45,782 nucleotides of DNA from Sedimentisphaerales bacterium (GTDB taxonomy: Bacteria > Planctomycetota > Phycisphaerae > Sedimentisphaerales > SM23-30): assembly GCA_028281535.1 (NCBI GenBank), contig JANQJS010000007.1, positions 1 through 45,782 on the forward strand, written 5' to 3'. Numbering within the stretch: position 1 is the stretch's first letter; each line of letters opens with the position of its first letter. The notes below the pieces were generated by a model. That model ran no database searches, was not told the origin of the DNA, and was given only the letters and a program-made list of their open reading frames with translations. Positions 9,001-37,791 of this stretch are shown here, piece by piece. Made by a program: the position numbers and the translations under genes.

Positions 9001-9204
9001 GTGGGCTAATGAGCCGATGGATGTCAGGCCCAAGAAACCAGAGGATCCTTTCATGGAGTGAATTCCACGAAAGACCTTATTTACCAGTTCGGTGTCAAAG
9101 TTTTTTCCAGCTTCTTCGATTTCCAGGAAATCGTTTTCAACTTCAGCTAATACTTCATTGGCTTCTTCGATAAATGAGCCATATAAATCAAATTCTTCTG
9201 ACAT
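6058..9204 (-). CDS. cheA: CheA hybrid histidine kinase with two CheW domains and a C-terminal receiver
   Basis: Central kinase of the chemosensory array, 1048 residues. Order: HPt domain (1-110) with phospho-acceptor H49 in RGIHSMKGSSG; a poorly recognisable middle region ending in a Pro/Ala-rich linker (about 265-315); dimerisation P3 (about 318-380); HATPase_c (about 390-560) with HLIRNSVDHG, DDGGGID and VSGRGVGMDVV; a first CheW-like domain (about 560-760) interrupted by an Arg/Asp-rich insert containing DDRRENQP and SGEDRRNN; a second CheW-like domain (about 770-900); and a REC domain (about 915-1035) with TDVEMPNMDG. Classical CheA of about 650 residues has one CheW domain and no receiver. 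The REC may act as a phosphate sink or internal output. It lies 37 bases after the STAS gene and 12 before cheW. Confidence 0.95.
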   Translation of the reverse strand: MSEEFDLYGSFIEEANEVLAEVENDFLEIEEAGKNFDTELVNKVFRGIHSMKGSSGFLGLTSIGSLAHEMENVLNLIRNNELVPTSAIIDPLLKGADVLRNMIADVTNSNEIDVSNEIQALKQAISGQASAETQESLNRDVDVSHPNGGLAFVMIKELELVSRQNQGMHVYLLEIDMIQDLEDKNRKPLDFLKELYSQGELVESYLSTAGMGTLSSSLPDSMTLMLLYASKWKRDNLAETLKLDKDKINLIASADQKNWIKEESPSNTTVPESTPAEATIKEDSVEVQAAPEAPEKPQAASPAGDVAKSTAPAAPTSLRVNVKVLDTLMNLAGELVLGRNQMIQIASTKDHSGFDSVAAKIDQVTSELQEAIMQTRMQPIGSVFSKFPRIVRDLSSKLNKKCDLEIEGKDVELDKTIIEGIGDPLTHLIRNSVDHGVELPSVRKERQKSETGTIHLKAYHQAGKVNIAIIDDGGGIDAEKMKTKAVEKGVITTDQAEEMSDRDAVRLIFHPGFSTAEKVTDVSGRGVGMDVVRTNIENLGGTVDIETAPGKGTEIIVKLPLTLAIIPSLVVRGGEDRFAIPQVNISELVRIKSSEVSEKIERVKNAEVLRLRGRLLPLLRMNQVLDNKSMFADPETNQLQVNNRQQVDDRRENQPVDEDIVEMRSGEDRRNNTTAGALNIIVVESEHLKYGLIVDELFDSKEIVVKPLGKHLKDAQCLAGATILGDGQVAMILDVAGIAGYMKLAAIEEHHIEQEVSEDQTDETQSTMIFSYASDEHFSIPVSFVARIERIQEKQIDSVGGQEVLQYRGTSLPLLSLDKYIKAKPRPESTSLYVIVFKIGDQEVGLIAPELVDIHEIPVDIDTKTFRENGVVGSTIINEKAVRVIDVYEISKEAFPEWEQQEMIQAKEDDSHPKVLLAEDSSFFRQQMVNFLESVGYEVTGCEDGQVAWETLQDPDQKFDIIVTDVEMPNMDGLQFTNKVKTDPCFAHIPVVAVTSLAGQEDQKRGKEAGVDEYQVKLDRDQLLESIKRLLKQSKHNAGLSQVNQTVS

Positions 9205-9241
9205 TTTGCCGCTCCCAAGTTAAAGCGATATGCAATTATTT

Positions 9242-9553
9242 TTATTCATTGGATCCACGAACGGTGAAGTGTTCATCTAAACGCATCACACGAAACAATC
9301 CTTTAAAATCTTCGTTATCTGTGACAATCGATAAATCGCCACCCTTTTCTTTTAGACTCTTATGGCATACAATAAATACAGCAATACCCTTTGAATCAAG
9401 AATATCAACATCATTAAGGTCGATGACCAATTCGGTTTCTCCACCTTCGACCAGTTCCAATAACTCTTTTCTGAATTCATCAACACCTGCGGCGGTGATT
9501 TTTCCAGAAGGCCTAACCCACATTGCGTTGTCTTTTTTTTCTGCAGTTAACAT
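9242..9553 (-). CDS. STAS-domain anti-sigma-factor-antagonist-like protein
   Basis: Small cytoplasmic STAS protein of 103 residues, the class that acts as anti-anti-sigma factor or partner-switch antagonist. The switch helix reads VDILDSKGIAVF, with S54 in the position phosphorylated by RsbW-type kinases. It is the gene immediately upstream of cheA (37 bases) and follows a 247-base gap after an RsbW-like kinase and a PP2C phosphatase, the two enzymes expected to phosphorylate and dephosphorylate it. The partner could be a sigma factor, the RsbW-like kinase alone, or a diguanylate cyclase as in other bacteria. None of these outputs is encoded next to it. Confidence 0.88.
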   Translation of the reverse strand: MLTAEKKDNAMWVRPSGKITAAGVDEFRKELLELVEGGETELVIDLNDVDILDSKGIAVFIVCHKSLKEKGGDLSIVTDNEDFKGLFRVMRLDEHFTVRGSNE

Positions 9554-9800
9554 AGCACTAGTTCCTTAATAATTTCTTAATCAATTACACACCGATAGCA
9601 CATGACTCTTGCCGCAACACCCCTTAATCTTACTCAATCTAATGATCGACTAAAAATTCCAGTCAAATAAGCCATTAAACAATCGCAAATTACCTGTTCT
9701 TACGATTAATCATTGTCCTTTTTTTTATCAGGTTTTCTCTTAATTTTTTCACTGTTTCTATTCAATAAAATTACTTTTTATTGGTCCTTGAAATTTCGAG
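9554..9800 (-). other. Intergenic gap between the RsbW-like and STAS genes
   Basis: This 247-base AT-rich gap interrupts the otherwise tight minus-strand cluster. I see no credible gene in it. A TTGACT hexamer on the minus strand (9666-9661) stands 18 bases before TTAGAT (9642-9637), a weak candidate promoter for the STAS-cheA-cheW unit. No terminator-like hairpin was noticed. Confidence 0.35.
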
Positions 9801-10235
9801 TTATTTACAAACTTCTGATGCAACGGAAATAAAATTCTTTTCTAAGAATATATGGTTCCCTATTTCATTATATGACATTTTATCGGAATATATTTTCATG
9901 AGAGCAAGGCCTCGACCGCTTTCTGCCATGGGATCGATTTTATCGATTCGTGATGCCCAATCGAAACCTTCGCCATAATCAATGACTTCCAGGCTAATAT
10001 GTTTTTCGTTAATCTGACTTATAATTTTCACGATCTTCGTAGGATCTTTCAGTGAACCATGCGCCACGGCATTGAGCGTACTTTCCCTGAAAATTATTCT
10101 CAGAGAAAATAAATCGACATCCACTTTTTTATTCTGAACGAATTCGGTAAACGCATCATCAGCGACATCTAAATTATCTAGTTCGGCTGACATCTCAATA
10201 GAGATTTCATTTTGATTACTCTCTACATTAAACAT
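9801..10235 (-). CDS. RsbW-like serine kinase (HATPase_c), anti-sigma-type
   Basis: GHKL-fold ATPase of 144 residues, the size of RsbW/SpoIIAB anti-sigma kinases that phosphorylate a STAS partner. The N box is FRESTLNAVAHGS, with E51 and N55 as the catalytic and Mg-binding positions. The G1 box is VIDYGEGFD and the G2 region SGRGLALMKIYSD. No sensory or histidine-phosphorylation domain is present, so it is not a two-component kinase. It starts 11 bases after the stop of the REC-PP2C gene and so is in one transcript with it. Its natural substrate is likely the STAS protein at 9242-9553, by analogy with partner switches. Confidence 0.88.
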   Translation of the reverse strand: MFNVESNQNEISIEMSAELDNLDVADDAFTEFVQNKKVDVDLFSLRIIFRESTLNAVAHGSLKDPTKIVKIISQINEKHISLEVIDYGEGFDWASRIDKIDPMAESGRGLALMKIYSDKMSYNEIGNHIFLEKNFISVASEVCK

Positions 10236-10246
10236 TTTGAAGGCCC

Positions 10247-11452
10247 CTAAAATTGAATTCCAAGTAGAACGATATCATCGTCAATGGTTTTCATGTTATG
10301 AATCAGATCATCCACAATATGATCGATACGCTTCTGTAGTGATAATTCTTGATTATTTTTCATTTTCAAGGCAACATAAGATTCACCGATCGCACGACTA
10401 CCTGTTTTTCCTTTTTCATCTGGATAGCTTTCAGTTAAGCCATCAGAGAAAAGGTAAATCTGATCCCCAGGTTCAACGTTAAAAACTTGTGACTGACATT
10501 GGACGGTATCGTGGATACCAAGCACATCACCCGTTAATTCTAAGTATTCATTACTACCATCTGCTTTTTGAATAAGTGCATTTGGGTGTCCGGCATTAAT
10601 GATTTCTACTTGCTTGGTTTCGATATCATATTTCATATAAACCGCTGTGACATATTCTCCAAGAGGTAAGAATTTACACAGCGCATTGTTGAGCATAAAA
10701 ATCGTTTCTTCGACAGAAAGCATTTCGTTAGTAAAACTCACTGTTAAAGCTTTTAATGCACCCGTTAAGTAAGAAATACCTAAATTATGGCCTGAGACAT
10801 CAGCAACAAGAATGCCATATTTGGTATCGCTCAATTGTATGATATCGTAGTAATCGCCCCCAGCTTCCAGGATAGGTTCAAATCTCATGGCACAATTCAG
10901 ATCTTTAAATTGTGCAGGGTCTGCTAGCAACCCTTGCTGTCCACTTTGAATTTGTAACTGCATATCTTGCAAATAGGTTTTGATATTTTTAATTTCATCT
11001 CTTAGTGTTTTCTTATTCCGTGAAAGATTGAGATGTGTGTTTAAACGTGCTGTGAGTTCTGCTTGATTGAATGGCTTTCGGATATAGTCTCCGGCACCAA
11101 TCTTGAAGCAATCGGTAATACGCTGGATATCAGATTCACCCGACATGAATAATACCGGAATATCATCAAAACGTGAGTCTTCTTTAATACGTCGACACAA
11201 TTCGAAACCATCCATGTTTGGCATCATATAGTCGAGGAGCATCAGGTCTGGCTTGTTCTTTTCCAGATATTCTAATGCCATGATGCCATCAATAACGGTA
11301 TCCACCTGGAAGCCTTTTTTAATCAGGACCTTTTCTAATGTGGTCAAACAGATTCGGTCGTCATCAACGACGAGAATCTTATAAATTTTATCAGTTGGAT
11401 CTGATAAGGCTTCTAGTGTTTCTGGTGTTACATGTTCTTTTAAATGTCCCAT
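10247..11452 (-). CDS. Response regulator with PP2C/SpoIIE-type serine phosphatase output (RsbU-like)
   Basis: Receiver-controlled protein phosphatase of 401 residues. The REC domain (about 24-145) has D30-D31-D32, phospho-acceptor D74 in LLDYMMPNMDG and a KPF lysine motif. A short helical linker follows (about 150-190), then a PP2C-type domain (about 195-400) with metal-binding motifs GGDYYD, ADVSGHN, LFSDGLTES and terminal DDDIVLLG. Such proteins dephosphorylate STAS antagonists when their receiver is phosphorylated. It is the first gene of the minus-strand cluster. Because no cheY is present, CheA is a plausible phosphodonor, which is an inference. A GAAAGAG purine stretch precedes the ATG by 3 bases. 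Confidence 0.92.
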   Translation of the reverse strand: MGHLKEHVTPETLEALSDPTDKIYKILVVDDDRICLTTLEKVLIKKGFQVDTVIDGIMALEYLEKNKPDLMLLDYMMPNMDGFELCRRIKEDSRFDDIPVLFMSGESDIQRITDCFKIGAGDYIRKPFNQAELTARLNTHLNLSRNKKTLRDEIKNIKTYLQDMQLQIQSGQQGLLADPAQFKDLNCAMRFEPILEAGGDYYDIIQLSDTKYGILVADVSGHNLGISYLTGALKALTVSFTNEMLSVEETIFMLNNALCKFLPLGEYVTAVYMKYDIETKQVEIINAGHPNALIQKADGSNEYLELTGDVLGIHDTVQCQSQVFNVEPGDQIYLFSDGLTESYPDEKGKTGSRAIGESYVALKMKNNQELSLQKRIDHIVDDLIHNMKTIDDDIVLLGIQF

Positions 11453-11931
11453 AATCTCTTTCTTTATATATAATAGTCCTCAGAGATCTTCTATACTCAT
11501 CGGTAAGCAGGGTTAGCGACTTATCTGATAGATTCGTTGTTTTCTGTGAACTTGTTTTATCTCTTTAAAACTCATCTCAGGTATAGCCTCATTTAGGAAA
11601 AAAATAAAAGGCCTCTATATATAGGACGAAACCTCTGAAATGCACCGGTTTTGGGGATTTTTTCAAAACGATAGACTCCTAAGTCTTTTTAATACATGGA
11701 GATAAAATTTTGATAATTTTTTATTTTTCAAAATAGTCACTACACAAACTGCACCGCTACCCATGGTAATTAATAGAACACAGATTCACCGTCTCTAAAG
11801 CTATGGCGGGACATGTGACGCGGATCATTTGGATTTTCGCTGATTGATTTTCTAAATACACCATCCCCATTTCACCTGCGGTGAACTGAGGCTGCCACTC
11901 TGATATTTTGTATATGTAGGTTATTTCTTAG
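11453..11931. other. Intergenic region upstream of the chemosensory cluster
   Basis: About 480 AT-rich bases without a supported gene. It must hold the promoter of the minus-strand cluster. AT-rich TATATATAG-like tracts lie at about 11617-11626 and 11465-11472, but I cannot identify a convincing -35/-10 pair. A 5-bp stem with four-base loop and a T run (11673-11690, plus strand) resembles a weak terminator, yet no plus-strand gene precedes it. Confidence 0.4.
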
Positions 11932-11960
11932 CATGCTCATCTAAGTGTAAGCCTGGCTCC
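11932..11960. repeat. Degenerate copy of the CATGCTCAC...ATGGCAC REP-like unit
   Basis: The 29 bases begin CATGCTCATCTAA and end TGGCTCC. Aligned without gaps they match the repeat unit at 44898-44925 at about 21 of 28 positions, with the substitutions scattered. It lies in the non-coding stretch before the membrane-protein gene at 12058. The similarity is modest and could be chance on its own. It is listed because two better copies occur elsewhere in the window. Confidence 0.35.
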
Positions 11961-12057
11961 GAACGATATTCTTTTATCAATAAAGGCATAATGGGTTGTT
12001 TGGTATCGGATGAGAATTGGGTGGACAAATGGGTTCTTGGGAGATACAAATAAGATT

Positions 12058-12768
12058 ATGAGTAAAAAACGATCCAATCTCCATGAAGTGAATTTTTATA
12101 CGTATCCGAAGTTTATCTTTACCTGGCCCTTGATTGTGTTGGGGTATTTGTTCTGGGCACTGAATAAGGGTGGTAATATGGACCTGGAAGTCACAGCCTG
12201 GATCTGGGGGATTACTTTGATCATCGTTATGGTGACGGTTGGATTTGATTTGAATCGTAACTATACGATTTTCTGGTTGGCCTTGCTTGGAATGTTCTGG
12301 TTTATTATCCTTTGGCTTAGAGATGCTAAAGGATTTAAAGTTTTTTCTAAAATCTACTATTTGTTGGCAGACTTGAATCCACAATATTCAGTCGGGCTGG
12401 GATTGTTTTTGAGTATTGTCTTATCAATTCTTTATGTCATTATGTGGTTATGGACGCGGTTAAATTGTCGATGGCGAATTACTCATAATGAATTTGAGTA
12501 TTATCAGTTTGGTCGGATGGATGATTCTATCGCACGAGGTGCTAAGCGGATTCGTACGAGTTACCCGGACTTTTTTGAATTGCTTCTTTGTGCAGCTGGG
12601 GATTTAATTATTTTTGATGCTCAAGGTAAGCGGGAGTTGCGTCGAATTCGTCATGTGCCTTTTTTACCTTGGGTAAAAAAGAAGATTAATCGAATTCTTG
12701 AGACAACGGCGGTAACCTCAAGTGAGTTGGAAGATGAGCAAAGTACTGAGGAAGAGCGGGCTTTGTAG
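12058..12768 (+). CDS. Four-helix membrane protein of unknown function
   Basis: I do not recognise a named family. From the ATG at 12058 (MSKKRSNLHEV) the protein is 236 residues with four hydrophobic segments: FIFTWPLIVLGYLFWAL, VTAWIWGITLIIVMVTV, YTIFWLALLGMFWFIILWL and VGLGLFLSIVLSILYVIMWL. A soluble C-terminal part of about 90 residues begins WRITHNEFEYYQFGR, where a short beta-rich, PH-like or regulatory fold is possible, and an acidic tail ends it. The frame is open to an earlier ATG at 12010, but that extension has no recognisable ribosome site, whereas GGGAGA stands 13 bases before 12058. It is the only plus-strand gene between the two large minus-strand clusters, so context says nothing about its role. 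A REP-like half element starts right after its stop. Confidence 0.75.
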   Translation: MSKKRSNLHEVNFYTYPKFIFTWPLIVLGYLFWALNKGGNMDLEVTAWIWGITLIIVMVTVGFDLNRNYTIFWLALLGMFWFIILWLRDAKGFKVFSKIYYLLADLNPQYSVGLGLFLSIVLSILYVIMWLWTRLNCRWRITHNEFEYYQFGRMDDSIARGAKRIRTSYPDFFELLLCAAGDLIIFDAQGKRELRRIRHVPFLPWVKKKINRILETTAVTSSELEDEQSTEEERAL

Positions 12769-12770
12769 GG

Positions 12771-12788
12771 TAAACGTGAGAATGGCAC
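12771..12788. repeat. REP-like half element
   Basis: The 18 bases TAAACGTGAGAATGGCAC match 44908-44925 at 17 of 18 positions (A instead of T at the eleventh). They begin two bases after the stop codon of the membrane-protein gene. The other arm of the 28-base unit is not recognisable upstream, because that sequence is coding. Two near-identical non-coding copies 32 kb apart suggest a dispersed repeat rather than a conserved regulatory site. Confidence 0.6.
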
Positions 12789-12883
12789 CTAACGATTTAT
12801 CTCATATCAATAAAACATAGATTTTCGCACGTTCGACATAGCTTAGTGCAGGTTCTTTGACTAACGCAAACGTTTTTATGAGT

Positions 12884-14023
12884 TTATTGCCAGGTATTCG
12901 CGACTGGGGTAAGGTAATGATTTCGGAATTTTGTGGGTGTTTGTGGTAGGTTGATGGCGTTGAAAGTGATATTAGAATTTTGGTTACAAGTTAAAGTCTT
13001 AGTTACAATAACGATGCCGTTAATAGCTTGGTTTTCTGCGACATCAAGATTGGCATCAACATATACCAAACCTGTAATCGGATTTAAGGCACTATCACAT
13101 TCAAGATAGACTTGACCTCCGCTAGCGAGTATAGCAGGATTATTTAAGCTGGCATCTTTTGTGACGTATGAATAATCATCGATCCTAAAAGAATTGCCTC
13201 CAGTACCAAAATTTGTGACTATGAGTGTTCCAGTAATTACACAGGTACCATCCAATTCAAATTTTTGACCACCACAATCTATCCAGTAAATTCCTTCCGG
13301 GTTTACAGTACCACTGTACGTATTAGTGGTTTTTGAAAGGGTGTGATTTGTCATTTTATTTATATATGGAAGCAGAGTTGCTTTGGCCTGGTAATAAGCC
13401 AATATATCGCCAGGAGTTGGAATCGTTTTTTGGGGTACTAATGTGGTCTTGATTCCTGTGATAGTAGCACCTACAAGATTAGTAATATTTCCTGTGGCAT
13501 CGGTGTTACCAGTAATTGATGAATTAGTATTTCGCATTAAAATGTTTGTTTGAGTGTAGACATTACCTGTTACTTGGGCATTCGTATCAAACTCTATATT
13601 ATTTGCGGAAATGGCATAACTAAGGACATCTAATGGGTATTGTTGTGATTGTACAGAATGAACACGTGTCACATCATCAATGGTAACCTGACATGCCAGA
13701 GTAACGCGTTGGGATTCATCATTAGCTAAATTTGCATCGAAGGTATCTACGCCTGAAACCGTATAGGATGCATTTCCCATTGTAGCTGTGGGAATCCATG
13801 TTCCATTGGTCAGTGTGGTTCGCCATGTGGGTACCTGGTTAGTAAAATGAATGGCGTGTCGTATACCGAGTTCAGCATACACTTCTGTCTGCCCGATGGA
13901 TTCAAGGCTTTGGGTTACCTTCCGTGAATACATAATTGCAAAGGAGATGGCAGACACCGATGCCACTAGCACCACAGCGGATGCTAAAACCAGAAAATAG
14001 ATGGTTCCTTTACGTTTTATCAT
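12884..14023 (-). CDS. PilX-like membrane-anchored protein, paralogue B
   Basis: 379 residues with one N-terminal membrane helix (about 8-30, GTIYFLVLASAVVLVASVSA) preceded by a short basic stretch, as in PilX/GspK-type pilus accessory proteins, but without the prepilin GFxLxE cleavage motif. The rest is predicted extracytoplasmic. Residues 160-360 are rich in short polar beta segments (NNIEFDTNAQVTGNVYTQTN, then NQAINGIVIVTKTLTCNQNS) like polymer-forming beta-helix repeats. The protein is a clear paralogue of the next gene upstream: both share QTEVYAELGIRHAI..FTNQ, DTFD.NLAN and a C-terminal KFRNHYL.P.ANTW. It is the last gene of the pilin-like group. A role in pilus tip or pseudopilus assembly is inferred from position. 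Confidence 0.72.
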   Translation of the reverse strand: MIKRKGTIYFLVLASAVVLVASVSAISFAIMYSRKVTQSLESIGQTEVYAELGIRHAIHFTNQVPTWRTTLTNGTWIPTATMGNASYTVSGVDTFDANLANDESQRVTLACQVTIDDVTRVHSVQSQQYPLDVLSYAISANNIEFDTNAQVTGNVYTQTNILMRNTNSSITGNTDATGNITNLVGATITGIKTTLVPQKTIPTPGDILAYYQAKATLLPYINKMTNHTLSKTTNTYSGTVNPEGIYWIDCGGQKFELDGTCVITGTLIVTNFGTGGNSFRIDDYSYVTKDASLNNPAILASGGQVYLECDSALNPITGLVYVDANLDVAENQAINGIVIVTKTLTCNQNSNITFNAINLPQTPTKFRNHYLTPVANTWQ

Positions 14024-14044
14024 TCATCCCACTTTCCCTTGAGA

Positions 14045-15196
14045 CTAATTCCATGTATTTGCAATCGGTGATAAGTAGTGATTACGAAATTTTAATGGCG
14101 GGCTGGATTTGAGCATGGAGTTATAGTTAATCTGAGCGTTTTCTTCAACGACTAAATTACCCGTTACAACGACGGTTCCATTGATAACTTGATTTTCTTC
14201 GATTTCTGCGTTTGCAACATTCATATAGACTAGACCATTAATGGGTAAACCTGCACTATGGCTTTCTAATCGAACATTTCCTCCTTGGAGTATGAGCGCT
14301 GGCTGATTCGCAGGTGCGGTAATCCTTGTCGTTCCATCTATTCGAAATAAATTAGAGCCTGATCCAATATTATTGACAATGATTGTTCCATTAATGGTAC
14401 AATTATTGAAGGTGACATCTTCATTTGCGGCGTTGATTAAATAAATCCCTAATGGATTGGGTGTACCATAAGGATTCGACGTTGAACTAAATGTCCTATT
14501 TGAAATATTCTCCAAATCGGAAGGCAATGGCGTTGCCAAAGACTCATAATAGGTCACAAAATTGTTTTGAGGCAGTGGTTCTAATTGCATTAAATCTGAT
14601 GATGAGTTAATGGCCCCTGAAATAATTCCAAAATTACTATAGCCTTGATTAATCAGTACATTCCCATTAATCACACAGGAGCTATTAGTTAATTGAAGGG
14701 TATTCACACTATAGACATCACCTGAAATTCGAGCGTTGTTATTTAGCCTGACCGATCCGGCGGCTATGGCATAGCTGAGAAAATCCATGGCTTCCTGTCG
14801 GGCCTGGAGAGATCGTGTTCGTGTGATATCATCAATGGTTACAGTGCATGCGAGCGTGACTCGATCCGTTTCATTGTTGGCAAGGTTGCTATCAAACGTA
14901 TCTATACCCGCCAGTTCATACGTGGCATCTCCCATTTTACCGCCTGTTAGCCATGGGCCACTATTTAGCACGGTTCGCCAATTTCCTGCTTGATTGGTAA
15001 AACTGATGGCATGTCGAATACCCAATTCGGCATAGACTTCAGTTTGATCGATGGATTCGATACTTTCTGAGACTTTACGAGAATGCATAATCGTATAAGA
15101 AATACCAATAACGGACAAAACCAACACCAGCGCAGAGGCAAGTACCAAAAAGTAAATGGATCCTTTTTGCTTACCTGTGAAGCGTTTCTTATTCAT
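14045..15196 (-). CDS. PilX-like membrane-anchored protein, paralogue A
   Basis: 383 residues, closely related along its whole length to the downstream gene at 12884-14023. A basic N-terminus (MNKKRFTGKQKG) leads to one membrane helix, SIYFLVLASALVLVLSVIG, followed by the conserved EVYAELGIRHAISFTNQ helix and a beta-rich domain with repeated short strands (LNNNARISGDVYSVNTL, EENQVINGTVVVTGNLVVEE) typical of a beta-helix. A GGGGA ribosome site stands about 8 bases before the ATG. It follows the pilV-like gene by 15 bases, so the two belong to one transcript. The divergence between paralogues is greatest in the middle of the beta region, suggesting different surface partners. Function is inferred only from pilus context. 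Confidence 0.72.
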   Translation of the reverse strand: MNKKRFTGKQKGSIYFLVLASALVLVLSVIGISYTIMHSRKVSESIESIDQTEVYAELGIRHAISFTNQAGNWRTVLNSGPWLTGGKMGDATYELAGIDTFDSNLANNETDRVTLACTVTIDDITRTRSLQARQEAMDFLSYAIAAGSVRLNNNARISGDVYSVNTLQLTNSSCVINGNVLINQGYSNFGIISGAINSSSDLMQLEPLPQNNFVTYYESLATPLPSDLENISNRTFSSTSNPYGTPNPLGIYLINAANEDVTFNNCTINGTIIVNNIGSGSNLFRIDGTTRITAPANQPALILQGGNVRLESHSAGLPINGLVYMNVANAEIEENQVINGTVVVTGNLVVEENAQINYNSMLKSSPPLKFRNHYLSPIANTWN

Positions 15197-29092: not shown

Positions 29093-29689
29093 CTAAATTT
29101 GGCAACTACCCAATCCACGTTTTTCTAAATACTGCTGGTGATAATCTTCTGCAATATAATAGGTTTGAGCTGGCTCAATTTCTGTTGCAATCGGCTGAGA
29201 AAATTTTCCACTTTCATCCAGCTGTTTCTTTGATTGTGCGGCAAGCTCTTTTTGTTTTTCATCATGGAAAAAAATTACCGAACGATATTGACGCCCAACA
29301 TCTGGCCCTTGGCGATTGACTTGAGTTGGATTATGGCAAGTCCAAAAAACCTCTAACAACTGATCATAACTGATTTTTTCAGGATCAAATACAACCTGGA
29401 CAACTTCGGCATGTCCAGTGGTATCTGAACAGACTTCACGATAGGTAGGATTTTCTGTCTCGCCACCGGTATAACCGACCGACGTGGAAGCAACGCCTTC
29501 CAATTTTCGAAATGTCGCTTCAACTCCCCAAAAACAGCCTGCTCCAAATGTTGCTTTTTCCATCTTTGCCTCACTTTCACTCATCATAGACGCTGTCAAT
29601 TGAGAATCTGATGTTTTGTCAACTGAACTCTCTAAACAGCCTGAAATAACCAGAAACATTAATATAAAACAGGTTATAATTATTTTCAT
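29093..29689 (-). CDS. msrA: Exported peptide methionine-S-sulfoxide reductase, lipoprotein
   Basis: 198 residues. MsrA reduces methionine-S-sulfoxide in oxidised proteins. The catalytic motif is [13 protein letters not shown] with C52, and FKxxG-region [20 protein letters not shown] and a C-terminal GLGSC recycling cysteine are also present. An N-terminal lipoprotein signal ([18 protein letters not shown], lipobox ISGC, C18) sends it to the envelope, which many bacterial MsrA lack. I start at ATG 29689, because GGAG precedes it by 9 bases. An in-frame TTG at 29704 would only add MECSG. It stands between the HD-GYP gene (convergent) and the end of the J-like gene, apparently as an independent unit. 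Confidence 0.94.
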
Positions 29690-29760
29690 GCCTGAACACT
29701 CCAAAATGGCCTTAACATTTCATATGAAATTTACTACGTATTTCATGACAAAATGTTCAC

Positions 29761-32700
29761 CTACAAATCAAGAACCTGGACCAATGTATCTGACGCCGCT
29801 AATGCATCGGGAGTATAGAAATCGATACCACCATCACGTAAATGGCTTGCCAAATCAATAACTTTTTGGATCGATTGTCTGGCTTGTGATCCTAAAATTT
29901 TATTGTCAATATCATGATATTTGGCAATTCCACACTGAACCATCCCATGTCCTTGACACTGCTTACATAACTTAACATCATGATCAGCACAATTAGGGCA
30001 TGGTTCAAAACCACTACCACTACATCGTGGACAACTATTTAAAAGTGTATCACCACAATAGGGACATAAACTCGAAATAGCCGCGGTTTCACATTGCCGC
30101 TGAAGTTCATCAAATGGAACAAGTAAAATAGATTCATAAAAATCTACATACTGTTTAAAAGAGGCCAACTTTTCAAATGAAACTAATGCCTCATCTGAAC
30201 GACCATCTAAATAAAATTGCAATGCCTGGATCATAAAATTCAAGGCTTGAATTTTTTCCTGCGAACGGCTATCTATTTCACGAGGAGTCTGATCAAGCGT
30301 TTGGGGATTTTGTGAAGTTATGCGTGAGGTGGTCTCTGTTCTATCTTCACTTTTTTGACGAATCTTCTGAGAAATCCGCTCCCACAAACGATTGGAATAT
30401 AATCCTAATTGTCTCAACTGATGCATTGAAGAAGGTGCATTGGCTAATTTATTTTTCTGAGAAACGTCTTCTGATATTAGCCATGCTCTTTGTGATGGCC
30501 CAGAGTCAATTTGTAATAGAAACTTCTCCTGTAGATTAATCATCCACGCCATTTCAACAAGATACGTTTGCAACCCACTTTGAATGCCTACAGTATATTC
30601 ATCTTTAACCTCGGCCCCATTAACACGCTTTCCCTCTACCGCACTACTCGACTGAACAATAAGTCGTTGTAGCTCGCGATTAACTTTTCGACAGTTATTG
30701 AGTAAATAATCTTGCAACTCTTCTATTTCGGGCAGTTGAATATGTGGTATATCTGGACGCTTCACCAACAGGTTATTATTTTCATCCCAGTTTGTACCAA
30801 TCAATACTTGCCAAATAAGATCAGTATAAACTCCTGAAACAACAATTAATTTAGTCGAAGTTTGGTCAGGCTGCCATAATAAGGGAACTTTATTTTCTTC
30901 CCTTAAATCAACAATGGAAGGATCCCATTTAATTTGTTGCGACTTTAATCGCATCCCCCACCATTTAATGATATTAAACTTATCGTCGCGACTACTTTGC
31001 AGTGATAGCATCCCATTTGATGGAAGTCGCTGGCCAGTCCCTCTTACTAAGGTTTGAGAAATCTGAACAGACACCCTATCATGATTACTTCGGCCGAGAG
31101 CATCCAAAAGTTTAAACGCCATATTTGGGTCGTCGATCAACATCAAACTGTTCAATATTCGACTTATCGTTTTTACACCAGGATAAGGCGAAGCCACTAA
31201 GCGATTCAGCAATAGATCTGTTGCTTCGGGTTGGTTTAAATGTACCAATTGATCAATCGCCTGTATGCGTATCCCAGGGAACTTGGAAAACAAATCTAAA
31301 CTCAATTTATCCAACGATTTTCCCACGATAAATTTGTTGTCACCAAACGAAAATTTTGATAACCCAGGCATGTTTTCAAATAGATACTCTGCCCGTTGAT
31401 TTGACAATAAAAGGTTTTCAAGTTTTTGGTTGAATTGTATAGGTCGCTGGGCCAGCTGGATCAAATAATTCAATGAACTCGACATCGTCATAGCATAATC
31501 GACAAGTAGATCTTCGCGTAAATTTGATGTTGAAAATGCATCCTCCATCTGATCCGAAAATGACAAGACCTCTGTTTCTTTCGCTATCTTTGGCTTTGGA
31601 GGAATTTTCGAAGCATGTTCATCGAACTGATGGAGCGGCTGAGGCTCTGCAGGGATATCATCAACAACTTCAAAGGGCGTTTCTGTCACTTTTGAAACAT
31701 TTTTTACCACCGGATTATTTGTTACATGAAACATAACCGTAAGCATAAAGGTTAACAAACAAACCAAGATAATGGTGGTCATCATTTTATAATTAACTGC
31801 CCGACTCGATAAATCGTTATCTGAAGGTTGAAGATATTCTTTAAGTATAGCATCTATTTTATCACACATATCAAAGTCCACTTGACCAACATAAGACTGT
31901 TGCATACTCGACATAGGCTTCACGGAACGCTCACCAAAATAGTCCTCTAAAACTTCCAATGCCACCGCGTGCGACAACCCATTTTTAGCGGCAAAGGCAA
32001 GTAACTGTTGTCTTTGTGGCTCATCGATGTCATGTTCTGGATAAAGCGCATATACCCAACGTTCAAACTGACGTTTCAGTGCATCAGGATCCCGTGTCCC
32101 ACGGACAAGGCCAGCCGCTTGAATTTCATTGTTGATAATTTTTGAAGCCAAACCAATCCCAATCCCCATGTGATCTGCTAAGGCATACAATTTATCCTCA
32201 TCACTGACAGTTAACACCGGCTGGTTGGCCATAGAGGTTTTCCCCCCCGAAGTTTCAGACAAAAATAAATCAGATTGCGCATAACGAATGACTAGATGAA
32301 TAGAATCAATAAAACTTTCAATGGTATCCTGGTCAACTGGCTTTGGTTTTGATCGAGGCGATGGGATACGATCCATAATAAGACCGATATCACCTGGAGT
32401 AAATCCAATCGATTTTAATTTGACATGCAATTCTTTGCGACTTTCATCCGGTAACGTTCCCTCTTGATCCAAAGCATCAATTAGCAAAGATTTCCCTTGC
32501 CGAATCAAGTCTGCCCTGGTCGGAGCTTGAGGACCAACGGGTTTTTGAAGGGAACGCTGGCGAAGAGTCTCCACATAATGTTGACATTTTTCTGGATCTC
32601 GTAAAGTCTCTGCCGCGACCTGTAAAATATCCTGCTCAAACTTTGAAATCAAAGCTAAAAACTGAGGGCCAGGAATATTCTCACGCAATATTTTTTTTCG

Positions 32701-32835
32701 GTTGGCCAAGGCCCGATCAATCAAATCGGCATCACATTGACGAGGATCAACGCCAAGCAAATGATAATAGGTGGGCTGTGAGATGTCATCTGGAATTCCC
32801 AACAACCGATACATTAATGTCCAATCTTCAATCAT
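29761..32835 (-). CDS. Large J-like / HEAT-like / DnaJ-type zinc-finger membrane protein
   Basis: 1024 residues from ATG 32835, chosen because it overlaps the upstream TPR gene stop as ATGA (32835-32832). The frame extends further upstream without a ribosome site. A J-like helical domain at about 1-90 (PTYYHLLGVDPRQCDADLID, ending TLRDPEKCQHY) lacks the HPD tripeptide, so stimulation of DnaK is doubtful. One membrane helix lies near residue 350 (MTTIILVCLLTFMLTVMFHV), then HEAT-like helices (LLLNRLVASPYPGVKTISRI) and a long helical region. A zinc-finger cluster begins about 100 residues from the C-terminus, with CPYC, CPRCSGSG, CPNC and CKQCQGHG, two of them in DnaJ CxxCxGxG form. It is the last gene of the vWA/ExbBD operon. 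Function unknown. J-like proteins of this shape are familiar to me from Planctomycetota. Confidence 0.72.
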   Translation of the reverse strand: MIEDWTLMYRLLGIPDDISQPTYYHLLGVDPRQCDADLIDRALANRKKILRENIPGPQFLALISKFEQDILQVAAETLRDPEKCQHYVETLRQRSLQKPVGPQAPTRADLIRQGKSLLIDALDQEGTLPDESRKELHVKLKSIGFTPGDIGLIMDRIPSPRSKPKPVDQDTIESFIDSIHLVIRYAQSDLFLSETSGGKTSMANQPVLTVSDEDKLYALADHMGIGIGLASKIINNEIQAAGLVRGTRDPDALKRQFERWVYALYPEHDIDEPQRQQLLAFAAKNGLSHAVALEVLEDYFGERSVKPMSSMQQSYVGQVDFDMCDKIDAILKEYLQPSDNDLSSRAVNYKMMTTIILVCLLTFMLTVMFHVTNNPVVKNVSKVTETPFEVVDDIPAEPQPLHQFDEHASKIPPKPKIAKETEVLSFSDQMEDAFSTSNLREDLLVDYAMTMSSSLNYLIQLAQRPIQFNQKLENLLLSNQRAEYLFENMPGLSKFSFGDNKFIVGKSLDKLSLDLFSKFPGIRIQAIDQLVHLNQPEATDLLLNRLVASPYPGVKTISRILNSLMLIDDPNMAFKLLDALGRSNHDRVSVQISQTLVRGTGQRLPSNGMLSLQSSRDDKFNIIKWWGMRLKSQQIKWDPSIVDLREENKVPLLWQPDQTSTKLIVVSGVYTDLIWQVLIGTNWDENNNLLVKRPDIPHIQLPEIEELQDYLLNNCRKVNRELQRLIVQSSSAVEGKRVNGAEVKDEYTVGIQSGLQTYLVEMAWMINLQEKFLLQIDSGPSQRAWLISEDVSQKNKLANAPSSMHQLRQLGLYSNRLWERISQKIRQKSEDRTETTSRITSQNPQTLDQTPREIDSRSQEKIQALNFMIQALQFYLDGRSDEALVSFEKLASFKQYVDFYESILLVPFDELQRQCETAAISSLCPYCGDTLLNSCPRCSGSGFEPCPNCADHDVKLCKQCQGHGMVQCGIAKYHDIDNKILGSQARQSIQKVIDLASHLRDGGIDFYTPDALAASDTLVQVLDL

Positions 32836-35225
32836 GGCACATCGTTCGCTTCTAACTGCAATTCCTGGATTAAATGATCTACAGGTTTTTGCCAATCTCC
32901 TAAATCAAGGCCCATAGATTTGACAAGAAAATAGTCCAATTTCAATTTTGCTTCTGCCAATTTTTTGATGCGAATATAGCATTGAATCAGATACACATTG
33001 GCTTCAACCCAATCTTCTGTTGTTGGATCAAGACCACTGGTTAATAACTGCCAATGATCTATGGCCTCCTCATATTGCTTTAAGTTCTCATGAGACAAGG
33101 CAATCGCACGAATTTCTTGTAATGTTAACGTCAAATCATATTGATTTTTCAGTGCAACAAGTGCCTGAATGGCTTTTGTATCTTCACCAAGATAATAATA
33201 ACTTAACGCTAAACGTCGCTGCAATGCAATCTTATCTTTTGCTATCACGGACCGGTTCTTTGCTTGAGCATGACGAACCAGCAAACGATACATCTCTTTA
33301 AGCAATTCAGCTTTTTGATTTAACGGTTGCTTGCGGTATGACAATTCGAGTTTATCAAGTTGATTATATATATAAATGGCTCTTTTTTCAGTTATGCTCG
33401 GTGCGGCTAAATAGGCCTTGACGCACTTCAGTGCCTCTGGTGTATTTCTTAAGTCAAATGCTAAATCGCATTCCAGACGGGCCGCAATTTCACCCAAATG
33501 CGAAACATCTTTTAAACTGGAAATTTTATTTGTAATTTGATGTTGCAAATAATGATCCGGAGCCGTCTCAATAATTTTTTTCAATATAATCCCTAACAAT
33601 TCAATCGCATTTTGATCTAATTCAATCGCACTATCTACTAATTCCTCTTTATCAAAATAGCGAAACAATTGCGAACATGCCTTCTCAAAATAAACCATAG
33701 ATTTGGAAGAACTTTCTAAAGCTAATTGATAATTAGTAACAGCTATACCATATATGGCTTGCCGATAAACGGGTGAATCTCTTTCGATTAATTGTAAAAC
33801 CGACAAAGCCTCACCAAAACGTTTCTCTTCAATCAAATATAAAGCTCTGACCCAATGTAGCGTCTCACCAGATGCCCCTGGAGCAAAGGACGGATCTATC
33901 AAATCAAGTAATTCGAGCATCTGCTTTCTCTCTGATGCTTTTTGGCCATGGAGTGTTTTCTGAGCTTCTGCAATAACGATTTCAATAATAGATGAATGAC
34001 CAAAATGTTTCTTTTGAGTAATCAAAAAGCGTTTAATCTCACTGAGATGTTTTTTGATACCCTGAATTTTCCAAAGAGCGACTAATCTATAATAGTCCAA
34101 ATCAGCTCTATAAGCACTACCAGAATCACTTTTTGCCAAACCTGCCTGTGCAAACTTAACGGCCTGCTTATAATCCTCGGATTCATAAGCCTGTCGAGTA
34201 TTAACAAGAGAAGCTAATGCTCCCCCTAAAGCATTGGAAGGCAAAACAGAAAACAACTTCTCTTGCCAAATAGGACCATAAGAATATATTTGATTCACTA
34301 ACTCAATTAATTTCCCCATACATTCTTTTTTATCTTCACGCTGTTTTTTCCGGCAGACCTCTCCAAACGCAGCAGCATAATCAATCATCATATCAAGCTC
34401 TAAAGCATCAAATAACGCATCCCTATCCATTCCGGAAAGATAATCCTGAACATATTGCACTAACAGATCATTCTCTCTAAGCTCTTTACACAACGCCACC
34501 CGTAATAGTGTCATGCGTTTAAAAATATCTGCAGGCGTAGACTTTACTGTCGCTGGTGCAAGAAGTGCAAGCGATTCTCTAAATTGTCCCAACTCAAAAA
34601 GACTCAAGCCTTGACCTAAAAAACAATCCGCTATAATTGGATGAGATTGATATCCATCTAAAGTTAAATTCGAGAAATAATCGATGGCGATACGAAGCCC
34701 TTCTTCTTTTTCCTGGCGACTTTGCGACACCATAGATAAATAATAATATATCCATGCGTTCGAATATTCACAACGAGCAAGCATGCTATTAGCATGCATC
34801 CACTCTTTATCCTTTTTCAATTTTTCACTTGAATTGGACCTCTCTAAACGTTCCATCACGGATATCGACATCAACTCTAATCGTTCATACCGATCCAATG
34901 CCTGCTGTAATTGTCGATATGCTCTCAAGCGTATGACTTCTTGCGATATATCTTTTTGCCAGAATGTCATTAACACACGTCCATATGTTTGATAAATCTG
35001 ACATTCAAGTAACAAAAGATCCATATCATTGTTTATATCCTGCCCAGTCTCAAACAAACGCTGCTTGGCAGATTCGAAAATTACCTGAGTCTGATCGACC
35101 GATGTTACCATCAAGGCTTTTTTTAATATTTGATGAATATCATGCTCTACTGAAGATGTTTGACAAAACAACAGACTATTGAGACAAAAAACCATGAGAA
35201 AACTAAATTTTAAATTCCTACTCAA
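32832..35225 (-). CDS. Exported TPR-repeat protein
   Basis: 797 residues. A Sec signal (MSRNLKFSFLMVFCLNSLLF, then CQTSS) sends it to the periplasm. The rest is almost wholly alpha-helical with recurring helix pairs of TPR type (GQGLSLFELGQFRESLALLA, YRLVALWKIQGIKKHLSEIK, LALSYYYLGEDTKAIQALVA, LSHENLKQYEEAIDHWQLLT). No catalytic motif is evident. It is coupled at both ends by ATGA overlaps, to the second ExbD upstream and to the J-like protein downstream. A scaffold or peptidoglycan/outer-membrane adaptor for the ExbBD motor is a reasonable inference. Homologous roles in PVC bacteria are not well established. Confidence 0.78.
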   Translation of the reverse strand: MSRNLKFSFLMVFCLNSLLFCQTSSVEHDIHQILKKALMVTSVDQTQVIFESAKQRLFETGQDINNDMDLLLLECQIYQTYGRVLMTFWQKDISQEVIRLRAYRQLQQALDRYERLELMSISVMERLERSNSSEKLKKDKEWMHANSMLARCEYSNAWIYYYLSMVSQSRQEKEEGLRIAIDYFSNLTLDGYQSHPIIADCFLGQGLSLFELGQFRESLALLAPATVKSTPADIFKRMTLLRVALCKELRENDLLVQYVQDYLSGMDRDALFDALELDMMIDYAAAFGEVCRKKQREDKKECMGKLIELVNQIYSYGPIWQEKLFSVLPSNALGGALASLVNTRQAYESEDYKQAVKFAQAGLAKSDSGSAYRADLDYYRLVALWKIQGIKKHLSEIKRFLITQKKHFGHSSIIEIVIAEAQKTLHGQKASERKQMLELLDLIDPSFAPGASGETLHWVRALYLIEEKRFGEALSVLQLIERDSPVYRQAIYGIAVTNYQLALESSSKSMVYFEKACSQLFRYFDKEELVDSAIELDQNAIELLGIILKKIIETAPDHYLQHQITNKISSLKDVSHLGEIAARLECDLAFDLRNTPEALKCVKAYLAAPSITEKRAIYIYNQLDKLELSYRKQPLNQKAELLKEMYRLLVRHAQAKNRSVIAKDKIALQRRLALSYYYLGEDTKAIQALVALKNQYDLTLTLQEIRAIALSHENLKQYEEAIDHWQLLTSGLDPTTEDWVEANVYLIQCYIRIKKLAEAKLKLDYFLVKSMGLDLGDWQKPVDHLIQELQLEANDVP

Positions 35226-35650
35226 GAATCCCCCCCACGAACACTAAAGATCACTTTTTTCAAATCAGCCATATGGCAAGTATCCAATGCTTGGATTAAA
35301 TAACCAAAAGCAACGTCACCTTGCCCTTCAATGATCACAGGAACATCGGCTATATTTCTACGTTGCTTGAGAAGCTCAAAAAGGTGATCAAAATTGCTAC
35401 AAACACTCGCATCACAAAGTATTCCAACGCCATCAGACAATGAACGGATTTTAATTCGAACAGGTTCCAGGAGATCTCGACTCGTTTTTTCATTCGAAAT
35501 CGATGGCAACTGAGTCGGTAAAGCTTTTTCTACTATTTTGAACGATGCGGTACAGATAAAAAAGATTAACAATAAGAAAACAACATCAATCATCGATGTA
35601 ATATTTAATTCTGGCAAATCACGGGTCGGTTTTCGACGATGTAATTTCAT
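35222..35650 (-). CDS. exbD: ExbD/TolR-family protein (second copy)
   Basis: 142 residues. Cytoplasmic N-terminus, then one membrane helix ITSMIDVVFLLLIFFICTAS with the conserved proton-relay Asp at D22, then a small periplasmic domain. It pairs with ExbB/TolQ as proton-driven stator. It begins inside the stop of the other exbD gene (ATGA) and ends inside the start of the TPR gene (ATGA), so translation of the trio is coupled. It differs from the first copy in the periplasmic domain (PVIIEGQGDVAFGYLIQALD) and has a C-terminal DLKKVIFSVRGGDS. Two distinct ExbD copies probably form a heteromeric stator. Confidence 0.92.
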   Translation of the reverse strand: MKLHRRKPTRDLPELNITSMIDVVFLLLIFFICTASFKIVEKALPTQLPSISNEKTSRDLLEPVRIKIRSLSDGVGILCDASVCSNFDHLFELLKQRRNIADVPVIIEGQGDVAFGYLIQALDTCHMADLKKVIFSVRGGDS

Positions 35651-36087
35651 GGCGTCATCATCTCCAAAGTGGAAACTTTTGGCGTTACGGCGACCTCAAC
35701 ATCTGAAATGCCCAGCTTGGCACATTGCGCCATAATTTCACGTGACACTTCCCAGGAAGATTTAAAATCGCCACGGATCAAAACCGAAACGTTTTCCTGA
35801 CCAAGCTCTGAAATTTTCTTTGATAGAAATTCTGGTATCTGTGAAGATTGATAGATACGTTGATCAATGATAATTCGATCGGTTGCCTGAATATTAACAA
35901 TGACGATTTCTGCCTGAGGCGGCTGCGATTCTCCCTTGACAGCCTCAGGAAGCGTCAAGGGTTCTAAGTCAAATCGTGTGATTTGTGTCACCATCATTAA
36001 AAAAATGATTAATAACAAAATAATATCAATCATGGGTGCCAGATTGACTGCAAGATTCACTTTTTTTTGTCGTTTTTGTAAACGCAT
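35647..36087 (-). CDS. exbD: ExbD/TolR-family protein (first copy)
   Basis: 146 residues with a basic N-terminus (MRLQKRQKKVNLAVN), one membrane helix LAPMIDIILLLIIFLMMVTQ carrying the conserved proton-relay D21, and a periplasmic domain (FLSKKISELGQENVSVLIRG). It is 14 bases after the exbB-like gene and overlaps the second exbD by the ATGA tetranucleotide. It matches ExbD/TolR in length. Both copies keep the catalytic Asp, so neither is a dead partner. Tol-specific or TonB-specific genes are absent nearby, so the family label does not tell which envelope process it powers. Confidence 0.92.
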   Translation of the reverse strand: MRLQKRQKKVNLAVNLAPMIDIILLLIIFLMMVTQITRFDLEPLTLPEAVKGESQPPQAEIVIVNIQATDRIIIDQRIYQSSQIPEFLSKKISELGQENVSVLIRGDFKSSWEVSREIMAQCAKLGISDVEVAVTPKVSTLEMMTP

Positions 36088-36101
36088 CTTAAGATCCGAT
36101 C

Positions 36102-36851
36102 TTAGAGATTGGAAGATTTCCTAAAACGCCCCATCAACCGCTCGACAACGGTTTCAGCTTCAGCAACATAACTATCAATACGATTACGGAAAAATGAAAC
36201 AAAAAACATGGTTGGGATAGCGATAATCAATCCAAGACAAGTGGTTACCAAAGCTTCAGAAATACCATCCGCCAATTGTGAGGGCTTGGCAGCACCATCC
36301 GAAATAGCAATTTGATTAAAGGATGCAATCATACCAGTGACCGTACCTAACAATCCCAACATGGGAGCCGTCGCAGCTATAAAGGATAGATATTCCAGCT
36401 TTCGATACAAACGAGACAATTCACGCTCACTCGCTTCTTGCATCGCGGTCTGCATATCGTAAAAACCTAACATAGATCCAAAGTGTGACAAACCGCTACT
36501 AATCACAATCGCCAAATAAGATCCATGCTCATCGCAGATTGTCTTAGCTTCAGCAATTTTTCTCGATTCCAAAATCGGTTCAAGACGTTCTTCTAAATCG
36601 TCCGGGATTAACTGGCTACGTCGTATACTCATAAAATGCTCTATAACAAACGCCGTAGCAACAAGTGACATCAATAATATGAAATAACCAATAACACCTC
36701 CTGATGTCACAGTACTCCAAAGAGAGATCTCTTGAGTTGGCTCAACAGTATCACGACTATCCTGCGAAAATCCTATCTGGCAAAATAATGTTAATACCAA
36801 ACATATCGCCAAACAATAATGCCAGATAACATTCTTTGAACTCTTGATCAT
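36102..36851 (-). CDS. exbB: MotA/TolQ/ExbB proton-channel family protein
   Basis: 249 residues from ATG 36851, picked because AAGGAG lies 5 bases upstream (an earlier ATG at 36887 lacks such a site). An N-terminal Sec signal (WHYCLAICLVLTLFCQIGFS) is followed by TM helices IGYFILLMSLVATAFVIEHF, SFIAATAPMLGLLGTVTGMI and LVTTCLGLIIAIPTMFFVSF. The AATAPMLGLLGTVTGMI and TTCLGLIIAIP segments are the family signature lining the proton path. It stands between the vWA gene (40 bases) and the first exbD gene (14 bases). It should form a pentameric motor with the two ExbD proteins. An added signal peptide is typical of ExbB-like proteins in some non-enteric phyla. Confidence 0.93.
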   Translation of the reverse strand: MIKSSKNVIWHYCLAICLVLTLFCQIGFSQDSRDTVEPTQEISLWSTVTSGGVIGYFILLMSLVATAFVIEHFMSIRRSQLIPDDLEERLEPILESRKIAEAKTICDEHGSYLAIVISSGLSHFGSMLGFYDMQTAMQEASERELSRLYRKLEYLSFIAATAPMLGLLGTVTGMIASFNQIAISDGAAKPSQLADGISEALVTTCLGLIIAIPTMFFVSFFRNRIDSYVAEAETVVERLMGRFRKSSNL

Positions 36852-36891
36852 ACATACTCCTTTTAAATCCGTTAAGATTCCATTCAATCAC

Positions 36892-37791
36892 TTAGGGACT
36901 GACGAATCGATAATTGCCACGATTTTGCCTGGCGATAAGCCTTAAACTATCCTCACCACTATTATCAGCAAACGCAATTGTATGAATGGGAATACGACTA
37001 ATTTGATTTGTGGCTCGTATCTGATCAACAACAGAATCATTCTCAAATTCCCCATCCGAGAGAAGCCAGATCGCATCTGGTTTTAAACGCAAAGCAAATT
37101 GAATCGCTTTCGTTGGATCTGTCGAACCAGCCGCCGGAACGGTTCGTGCCCATTCAAAATAAATCTCGCGGTTGTGCCGACTCGCTTTAACAAGTCCTTC
37201 AGCCTCCATCTTTAGATAATCGACATCATAAAATATGATAAAAAATGACATGCGAGATGTTAATGACTCTATTGAGTGAAACAACTCATTTCTTGCAGCA
37301 TCAAGTCGGCCATTTGCCATACTCGCAGAACGGTCAACGACATAAACAAATTTCCCGCCCCTGGCTTGCAATCCAAAAAATGTGGCACCTAATTCACCAA
37401 GATTACTCTGACTCATAAAGCTGGCCCAATTACCTGAAAGTGAATTTTCCAAATCACTAGGTGACATTTTCATGGATATCGTAGGCTCTGATGTTGTGAT
37501 CTGAGAAATCTCTTCGAGAACTTGTACATCAGGTTGCTGCGGGGTTTGGATAGCCCAAGGATTCAAAGCTGATACCTGAATGGCATCCAATGGCTGCTGT
37601 TCTGCAATCAAATCTTTTGAGTCTGACACCTCAATAGATACTTTCTTGCCATCATGAATTTTCCCTGGCTTGCCTGGCCTGGATTGTGTAATCAACAAAA
37701 GTAAAATGACCAGCAGCACATGGATCAAGATAGACCCTGACCAACTACTAATTTGTGCAACTTTTTGTTGTCGACGATACTTAAAGATCAT
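36892..37791 (-). CDS. Membrane-anchored von Willebrand A-like protein
   Basis: 299 residues. One N-terminal membrane helix (about 19-36, GSILIHVLLVILLLLITQS), a polar linker of about 100 residues, then a vWA-type domain (about 145-299) with an intact MIDAS: D153-x-S155-x-S157 in VVDRSASM, Thr in AGSTDPTKAI and Asp in LLSDGEFENDS. vWA domains bind divalent metal and protein ligands, and the domain faces the periplasm if the anchor is a signal-anchor. The N-terminus resembles a TonB/TolA-like anchor helix. It heads the operon with exbB, two exbD, TPR and J-like genes. It could be the moving partner of the ExbBD stator. A promoter should lie in the 169-base divergent gap upstream. Confidence 0.85.
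   Translation of the reverse strand: MIFKYRRQQKVAQISSWSGSILIHVLLVILLLLITQSRPGKPGKIHDGKKVSIEVSDSKDLIAEQQPLDAIQVSALNPWAIQTPQQPDVQVLEEISQITTSEPTISMKMSPSDLENSLSGNWASFMSQSNLGELGATFFGLQARGGKFVYVVDRSASMANGRLDAARNELFHSIESLTSRMSFFIIFYDVDYLKMEAEGLVKASRHNREIYFEWARTVPAAGSTDPTKAIQFALRLKPDAIWLLSDGEFENDSVVDQIRATNQISRIPIHTIAFADNSGEDSLRLIARQNRGNYRFVSP

Follow-up and report, generated by a model that had tools for sequence, protein, structure and literature searches.

The outer membrane of diderm bacteria lacks a source of energy, and to our knowledge the way in which work there is powered is known in detail only for the Ton and Tol systems. A third class of force transducers, bearing an adhesion-type vWA head, has been proposed in a bioinformatic and structure-prediction description of the PVC group and other bacteria (Williams-Jones et al. 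2025, Mol Biol Evol; PMC12204202). The transducer genes of this class adjoin genes for a TolQ-like protein, two heterologous TolR-like proteins and a TPR protein; the function of the transducers was stated to be unknown, and gliding was suggested (PMC12204202). The locus described here comes from a Sedimentisphaerales bacterium (Planctomycetota; Phycisphaerae; assembly GCA_028281535.1). It occupies positions 29761-37791 on the minus strand of the window, a stretch of 45,782 nucleotides that is contig C56 of a 4.44 Mb genome, 99% complete. Its six genes code, in order, for a vWA protein, an ExbB/TolQ-type subunit, two ExbD/TolR-type subunits (ExbD1 and ExbD2), an exported TPR-like protein and a membrane protein combining a J-like domain with zinc fingers.

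The unit has the components of the published vWA force-transducer family, namely an inner-membrane SHLS-type helix, a disordered linker and a vWA head, with TolQ-like, two TolR-like and TPR neighbours. It differs from that family in continuing with the J-like/zinc-finger membrane protein, a linked module that the locus adds to the class. The original prediction, made from the sequence without database searches, had presented the whole system as a candidate undescribed motor. For the combination of vWA, TolQ-like, two TolR-like and TPR proteins this was anticipated by the 2025 publication (PMC12204202). The main text of that paper contains neither the word "DnaJ" nor the word "zinc", and, as far as the literature was searched, neither the J-like/zinc-finger module nor the ancient pairing of the ExbDs has been described. 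A new element is the J-like/zinc sixth gene, for a chaperone-like protein in partly dismantled form, which lies behind the TPR gene in two very diverged groups.

The vWA protein and its motor

The vWA protein is, judged from its sequence and predicted structure, a TonB/TolA-type force transducer with a different head, because it shares with TonB and TolA both a docking signature and a helix-linker-head plan. In solved structures, the Ser-X3-His-X6-Leu-X3-Ser motif of TonB and TolA docks on ExbB/TolQ, its Ser and His touching a Ser and a Trp of TM1 that are networked with a Pro of TM3 (PMC12215075). The membrane helix of the window protein carries the signature S20-x3-H24-x6-L31-x3-T35, which is the SHLS motif of the vWA transducer family with Thr as its final residue. 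The first two of these residues are kept almost throughout the aligned homologues (Table 1), which are only 22-37% identical to the window protein. Over all loci, [S/T]xxxH occurs in the helix of 66 of the 69 vWA proteins encoded beside ExbB, one of the three exceptions being cut by a contig end, and in 9 of 275 control N-terminal membrane helices of the same loci. The original prediction overlooked this signature. It was right that the vWA protein is held by a membrane helix, but a helix with a TonB/TolA docking signature is not a passive anchor.

The AlphaFold2 (AF2) model of the protein consists of a confident helix (residues 2-36), a disordered linker of about 95 residues (~40-130) and a vWA domain (135-298). 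The predicted local distance difference test (pLDDT) score of the head is mostly above 90, and the head matches vWA domains of the PDB in Foldseek (E 3e-13). VWA is the sole Pfam domain found in the transducer, with no TolA C-terminal domain. The residues D153, S155 and S157 of the metal-ion-dependent adhesion site (MIDAS), together with the acidic D246, are invariant in 21 of 21 vWA rows, in agreement with the intact MIDAS noted earlier. In the vWA transducers of four other loci (L157, L158, L160 and L162), a zinc-ribbon-like CxxC...CxxC precedes the membrane helix and is hence predicted to lie on the cytoplasmic side.

The ExbB and both ExbDs of the unit score best as TolQ/TolR among the NCBIfam models. 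The stator of one ExbB/TolQ and two distinct ExbDs with a proton-relay Asp, as first proposed, is borne out by the Pfam matches and by this Asp being invariant in 18 of 18 ExbD rows. ExbB retains the equivalents of TolQ Ser28, Thr145, Thr178 and Pro187 in 14 of 14 rows, that is, the Ser and the Pro of the docking network and both pore threonines. In the E. coli TolQ reference row of this alignment, residues 110-203 match those of the PDB chain.

A tree was built from the ExbDs of 53 operon pairs and the three Ton ExbDs of the window's genome. The first and the second ExbD behind ExbB separate into two groups, reciprocally monophyletic and each of 53 rows, with support of 95/85 for D1 and 95/63 for D2 (97/86 for 52 of the 53 D2 rows). 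The grouping corresponds to a single change per group, as against about 37 changes in shuffles. The inner forks are weak because the columns are few (147). Both groups span to Desulfobacteraceae, Pseudomonadota, Binatota and Kiritimatiellota. Their reciprocal monophyly shows the pairing to be ancient; most likely it goes back to a single ancient duplication, and the axle is 1:1. Given two unlike ExbDs of ancient common origin in a fixed order, an asymmetric motor axle is predicted.

The unit might also be a defence system related to Zorya, which uses the ZorA/ZorB proton motor. In PADLOC the ExbB gives weak matches to ZorA models (E 6e-5) over the shared channel region; no ZorB, ZorC, ZorD or ZorE is found and no other gene of the unit matches any model. 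The core keeps a fixed order across the whole taxonomic class, unlike a mobile defence island, and a defence role is therefore rejected as extremely improbable.

Taken as a statement about mechanism and not about role, the unit probably works as a proton-driven, trans-envelope, Ton/Tol-like force transducer with a metal-dependent vWA head. The docking motif, the TonB-like plan, the conserved gene order and the separate Ton systems of the genome (see below) all fit the predicted action of an ExbB/ExbD motor on the vWA protein, and independent structural modelling of the same class agrees with this mechanism (PMC12204202). Five ExbB subunits would enclose an axle made up of ExbD1 and ExbD2, one copy each, and the vWA membrane helix would dock on the ExbB side through S20 and H24. 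The flexible linker would cross the periplasm, and the metal-binding head would grip and pull a partner at the outer membrane or wall. The first candidate for this partner would be the exported TPR protein. The J-like/zinc protein may be an accessory component, with its J-like domain (lacking the HPD motif) in the cytoplasm, one membrane helix, and periplasmic helical repeats and zinc fingers that probably bind a partner or client.

Table 1. Genes of the six-gene unit and features of their products; positions are those of the window
Feature	Position	Strand	Basis
vWA force-transducer protein, 299 residues (predicted)	36892..37791	-	Pfam VWA_3 E 6e-11; AF2; Foldseek
S20-x3-H24, TonB/TolA-type motor-docking signature, continuing L31 and T35	37720..37734	-	H24 in 21/21, S20 in 20/21
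MIDAS motif D153-x-S155-x-S157	37321..37335	-	Invariant, 21 aligned homologues
ExbB/TolQ-type motor subunit	36102..36887	-	Pfam MotA_ExbB E 4e-31; NCBIfam tolQ 88 bits, exbB 60 bits
ExbD1/TolR-type axle subunit, clade D1	35647..36087	-	Pfam ExbD E 9e-19; Asp21 invariant
ExbD2/TolR-type axle subunit, clade D2	35222..35650	-	Pfam ExbD E 4e-20; Asp22 in invariant column
Exported TPR-like protein, 797 residues	32832..35225	-	N-terminal hydrophobic stretch; weak TPR matches; conserved position
J-like/membrane-helix/helical-repeat/zinc-finger protein, 1024 residues	29761..32835	-	Position kept in five complete relatives, with one gene or two
J-like domain, residues about 20-92, no HPD	32560..32778	-	Family profile against PDB DnaJ J domains, E 6e-4; alignment
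Single membrane helix of J protein, residues 342-373	31717..31812	-	Hydrophobic stretch; helix in AF2 model
CxxC motif in four copies, two of them CxxCxGxG (putative DnaJ-type zinc fingers)	29944..30066	-	8 Cys invariant, 4 homologues

All six genes were found at the coordinates first given for them. Two of the three proposed ATGA overlaps (35650-35647 and 32835-32832) are present as such, but the third, at 35225-35222, reads TTGA and contains a TTG start. An ATG at 36851, which has AGGAG upstream, is the likelier start for ExbB. The TPR protein has an N-terminal hydrophobic stretch; its matches to the Pfam TPR models are sub-threshold only (0.0014), and its gene keeps its position in all complete relatives.

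The genome has Ton systems of its own. Two of its three TonB_C proteins are encoded beside their own ExbB/ExbD on contig C48 and the third in a cluster with ExbB/ExbD on contig C60, with TonB-dependent receptor plugs near both. TonB_C proteins and plugs occur on these other contigs only and none lies in the six-gene unit. Three OmpA-family matches were found in the genome, none of them inside the unit, and TolB_N had no match in the genome. The earlier statement that the usual Ton and Tol partners are missing holds as regards TolB_N in the genome and a Pal/OmpA gene in the unit, but not as regards the transducer, since the vWA protein is itself a partner of the TonB/TolA type. Compared with Tol-Pal, the unit has the same TolQ/TolR-type stator and SxxxH transducer helix, whereas its head is a vWA domain in place of the TolA C-terminal domain. 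With Ton it shares an energiser and an SxxxH-helix transducer with a disordered linker, but it has two unlike ExbDs and neither TonB_C nor receptor.

The unit might nevertheless be a standard Ton or Tol motor serving a TonB or TolA encoded elsewhere, the vWA protein being a bystander. ExbB and the ExbDs are of the same superfamily and three TonBs are at hand. This is very unlikely, however, because a check on TonB as the usual partner found each of them with ExbB/ExbD genes of its own on another contig, because TolB_N is absent, and because the vWA gene, with its docking motif, adjoins ExbB in all complete relatives.

The J-like/zinc-finger protein

The sixth protein gave no significant match when it was searched alone against Pfam. 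A fold search with its full AF2 model (pLDDT 61) found nothing at E <= 0.001, and the matches obtained were helical-repeat-like only. The predicted J-like domain without a His-Pro-Asp (HPD) motif was recovered with a family profile, which matches J domains of DnaJ in the PDB, and the alignment lacks HPD. The domain should therefore be unable to act as a normal Hsp70 co-chaperone. The DnaJ-type fingers are a candidate assignment: their profile matches the Cys-rich domains of BSD2 (E 5e-5) and DnaJ (E 0.005), Pfam DnaJ_CXXCXGXG staying below the cut-off in relatives. By profile the two kinds of domain resemble those of DnaJ (Hsp40) and BSD2-type Cys-rich proteins, but in the window protein they are widely separated, with a membrane helix and helical repeats between them, and in relatives each has its own gene.

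The window and one other genome (G121) encode the zinc-finger part and the J protein as a fusion. At four loci (L033, L035, L036 and L145) the zinc-finger part has a gene to itself, whose product has a signal-peptide-like start, and at a fifth (L032) it is joined to a transglutaminase domain (Transglut_core E 5e-23). Because several relatives encode it as a secreted protein of its own, the zinc-finger part most likely works outside the cytoplasm, while the J-like domain, which lies ahead of the single helix, is most likely inside. J-like domains of this type also occur in unlinked planctomycete proteins (L148 and L149).

In Phycisphaerales-type genomes the TPR gene is followed by another J family (group B), which is very diverged. 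It is present in 18 of the 198 genomes of the taxonomic class, in 16 of which its gene shares contig and strand with a vWA gene 6.2-8.6 kb away. The N-terminal domains of group B and of the J proteins related to that of the window (group A) match each other by profile (94.8%, E 5e-8), and the group B domain also matches DnaJ (E 3e-5). Group B keeps an invariant HP but has lost the Asp of HPD. In many of its operons the next gene codes for a secreted protein with two CxxC motifs. The idea that the two groups are homologous over their whole length was dropped, as the full-length profiles reach 4.7% (E 0.0085) and the match is confined to the N-terminal domains.

DnaJ-like parts in two diverged groups, and secreted zinc-finger proteins beside the motor, one of them the transglutaminase fusion, would suit a machine that exports, folds or matures surface proteins, its J-like/zinc and transglutaminase modules handling clients and its motor supplying work at the outer membrane. 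Such a machine is unlikely here: the loss of HPD leaves no ordinary link to Hsp70, the unit has no gene for an outer-membrane channel, and most core operons seen are without a recognisable J/zinc gene.

Recurrence of the unit and its possible role

The six genes occur in the same order in the window and in five further genomes (G010, G033, G032, G028 and G055; loci L032, L033, L035, L036 and L145). In G055 an IS200-like transposase gene stands between ExbD1 and ExbD2; it does not replace ExbD2, which is present behind it. Three loci cut by contig ends (L030, L031 and L034) agree with the order as far as they reach. The recurrence of the six-gene order is far beyond chance. With 6 complete and 3 contig-cut cases, the full order is conserved in a subset of genomes only, and one genome keeps the J/zinc gene alone. 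The core is far more widespread than the six-gene form. A scan with ExbB gave 80 named loci, many with the order vWA-ExbB-ExbD-ExbD and often with TPR in addition. They come mostly from Planctomycetota, as do the nearest named relatives of the window's ExbB, and some from Desulfobacteraceae, Binatota, Kiritimatiellota and others.

In many core operons a secreted protein of ~350-400 residues, without a clear Pfam match, is encoded between vWA and ExbB (L053 7781-8893, L094 7818-8927 and others); it is absent in the window's subgroup. Another vWA motor operon, a diverged one, lies on contig C2 of the window's genome (L029, G000:C2:124000-143000, at 7190-13260), in the order vWA, a 186-residue protein with weak TPR matches, ExbB, ExbD, ExbD and a 932-residue protein. 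No J/zinc gene was recognised among its genes.

The genome with the lone J/zinc gene is G121, where the fusion gene stands beside holA and gyrA (L146, G121:C33, 5403-12876). In G033 (L033) holA and gyrA lie upstream of the vWA gene, and the matching site in G121 is without the five motor genes. By this comparison G121 seems to have lost its motor genes, and the J/zinc protein can therefore outlive its motor.

Homologues of the vWA protein, among which motor-less vWA proteins may be included, were found in 188 of the 198 genomes of the taxonomic class, and TolB_N, whose profile a diverged TolB may escape, in 1 of the 198. Because vWA is near-universal and TolB is missing in the class, a Tol-like role in upkeep or assembly of the outer membrane, in a lineage without a detected TolB, is favoured, albeit tentatively. 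A more specific version, that a vWA-headed motor with an obligate ExbD1:ExbD2 axle took over the envelope role of Tol-Pal and that the J/zinc protein is a dedicated cytoplasm-to-periplasm scaffold whose J domain has no Hsp70 function, is rather doubtful. With TolB undetectable in the lineage, replacement of Tol-Pal by such motors becomes testable.

The Agl-Glt gliding motor of Myxococcus resembles the unit in having one TolQ-type and two TolR-type subunits (AglR, AglQ and AglS) and exported TPR proteins (PMC3169522), as well as a vWA protein, the adhesin CglB. The unit might be a gliding or adhesion motor of this kind in which the motor itself carries the vWA domain; gliding has also been suggested for the transducer class (PMC12204202). 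CglB, however, is a surface adhesin and not a motor-tied transducer, whereas the window protein is tied to the inner membrane and is not an outer-membrane lipoprotein. The near-universal presence of vWA homologues in the taxonomic class is moreover housekeeping-like rather than that of a niche trait, which makes gliding quite unlikely. No Glt-specific gene was noticed in the unit, where no search was aimed at Glt families.

Some observations weigh against the vWA-headed transducer and the role tentatively given to it, the limits on the vWA and TolB_N counts among them. A further 10 of the 198 genomes match neither profile, the function being therefore dispensable there or done otherwise. No phenotype has been reported for any member of the vWA-motor class, and G121 has kept the J/zinc gene but not the genes of the motor. 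The Trp of the docking network is missing in 14 of 14 vWA-motor ExbBs. This last point is weak counter-evidence because the Ton ExbBs of the same genome are also without it. For the same reason the loss of Trp32 was dropped as a candidate specificity switch against the genome's own TonBs.

Neighbouring genes

A scan of the locus for promoters and terminators was not used, as promoter-like sites were not above shuffles and terminator-like sites were below them. A gene for a peptide methionine sulfoxide reductase with a lipoprotein-like start (29093-29704) follows the J/zinc gene on the same strand after 56 bases; this gene was not seen in the loci of relatives. Two tandem paralogous genes for proteins of 379 and 383 residues with pilin-like N-termini occupy 12884-15196. 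The 2-kb block 12001-14000 has a GC skew of +0.19 in mostly negative surroundings. Judged from the translations, the region 244-27089 contains chemotaxis/phosphorelay genes (CheB-, MCP-, CheW- and CheA-like), followed by pseudopilin and type II secretion/pilus assembly-like genes.

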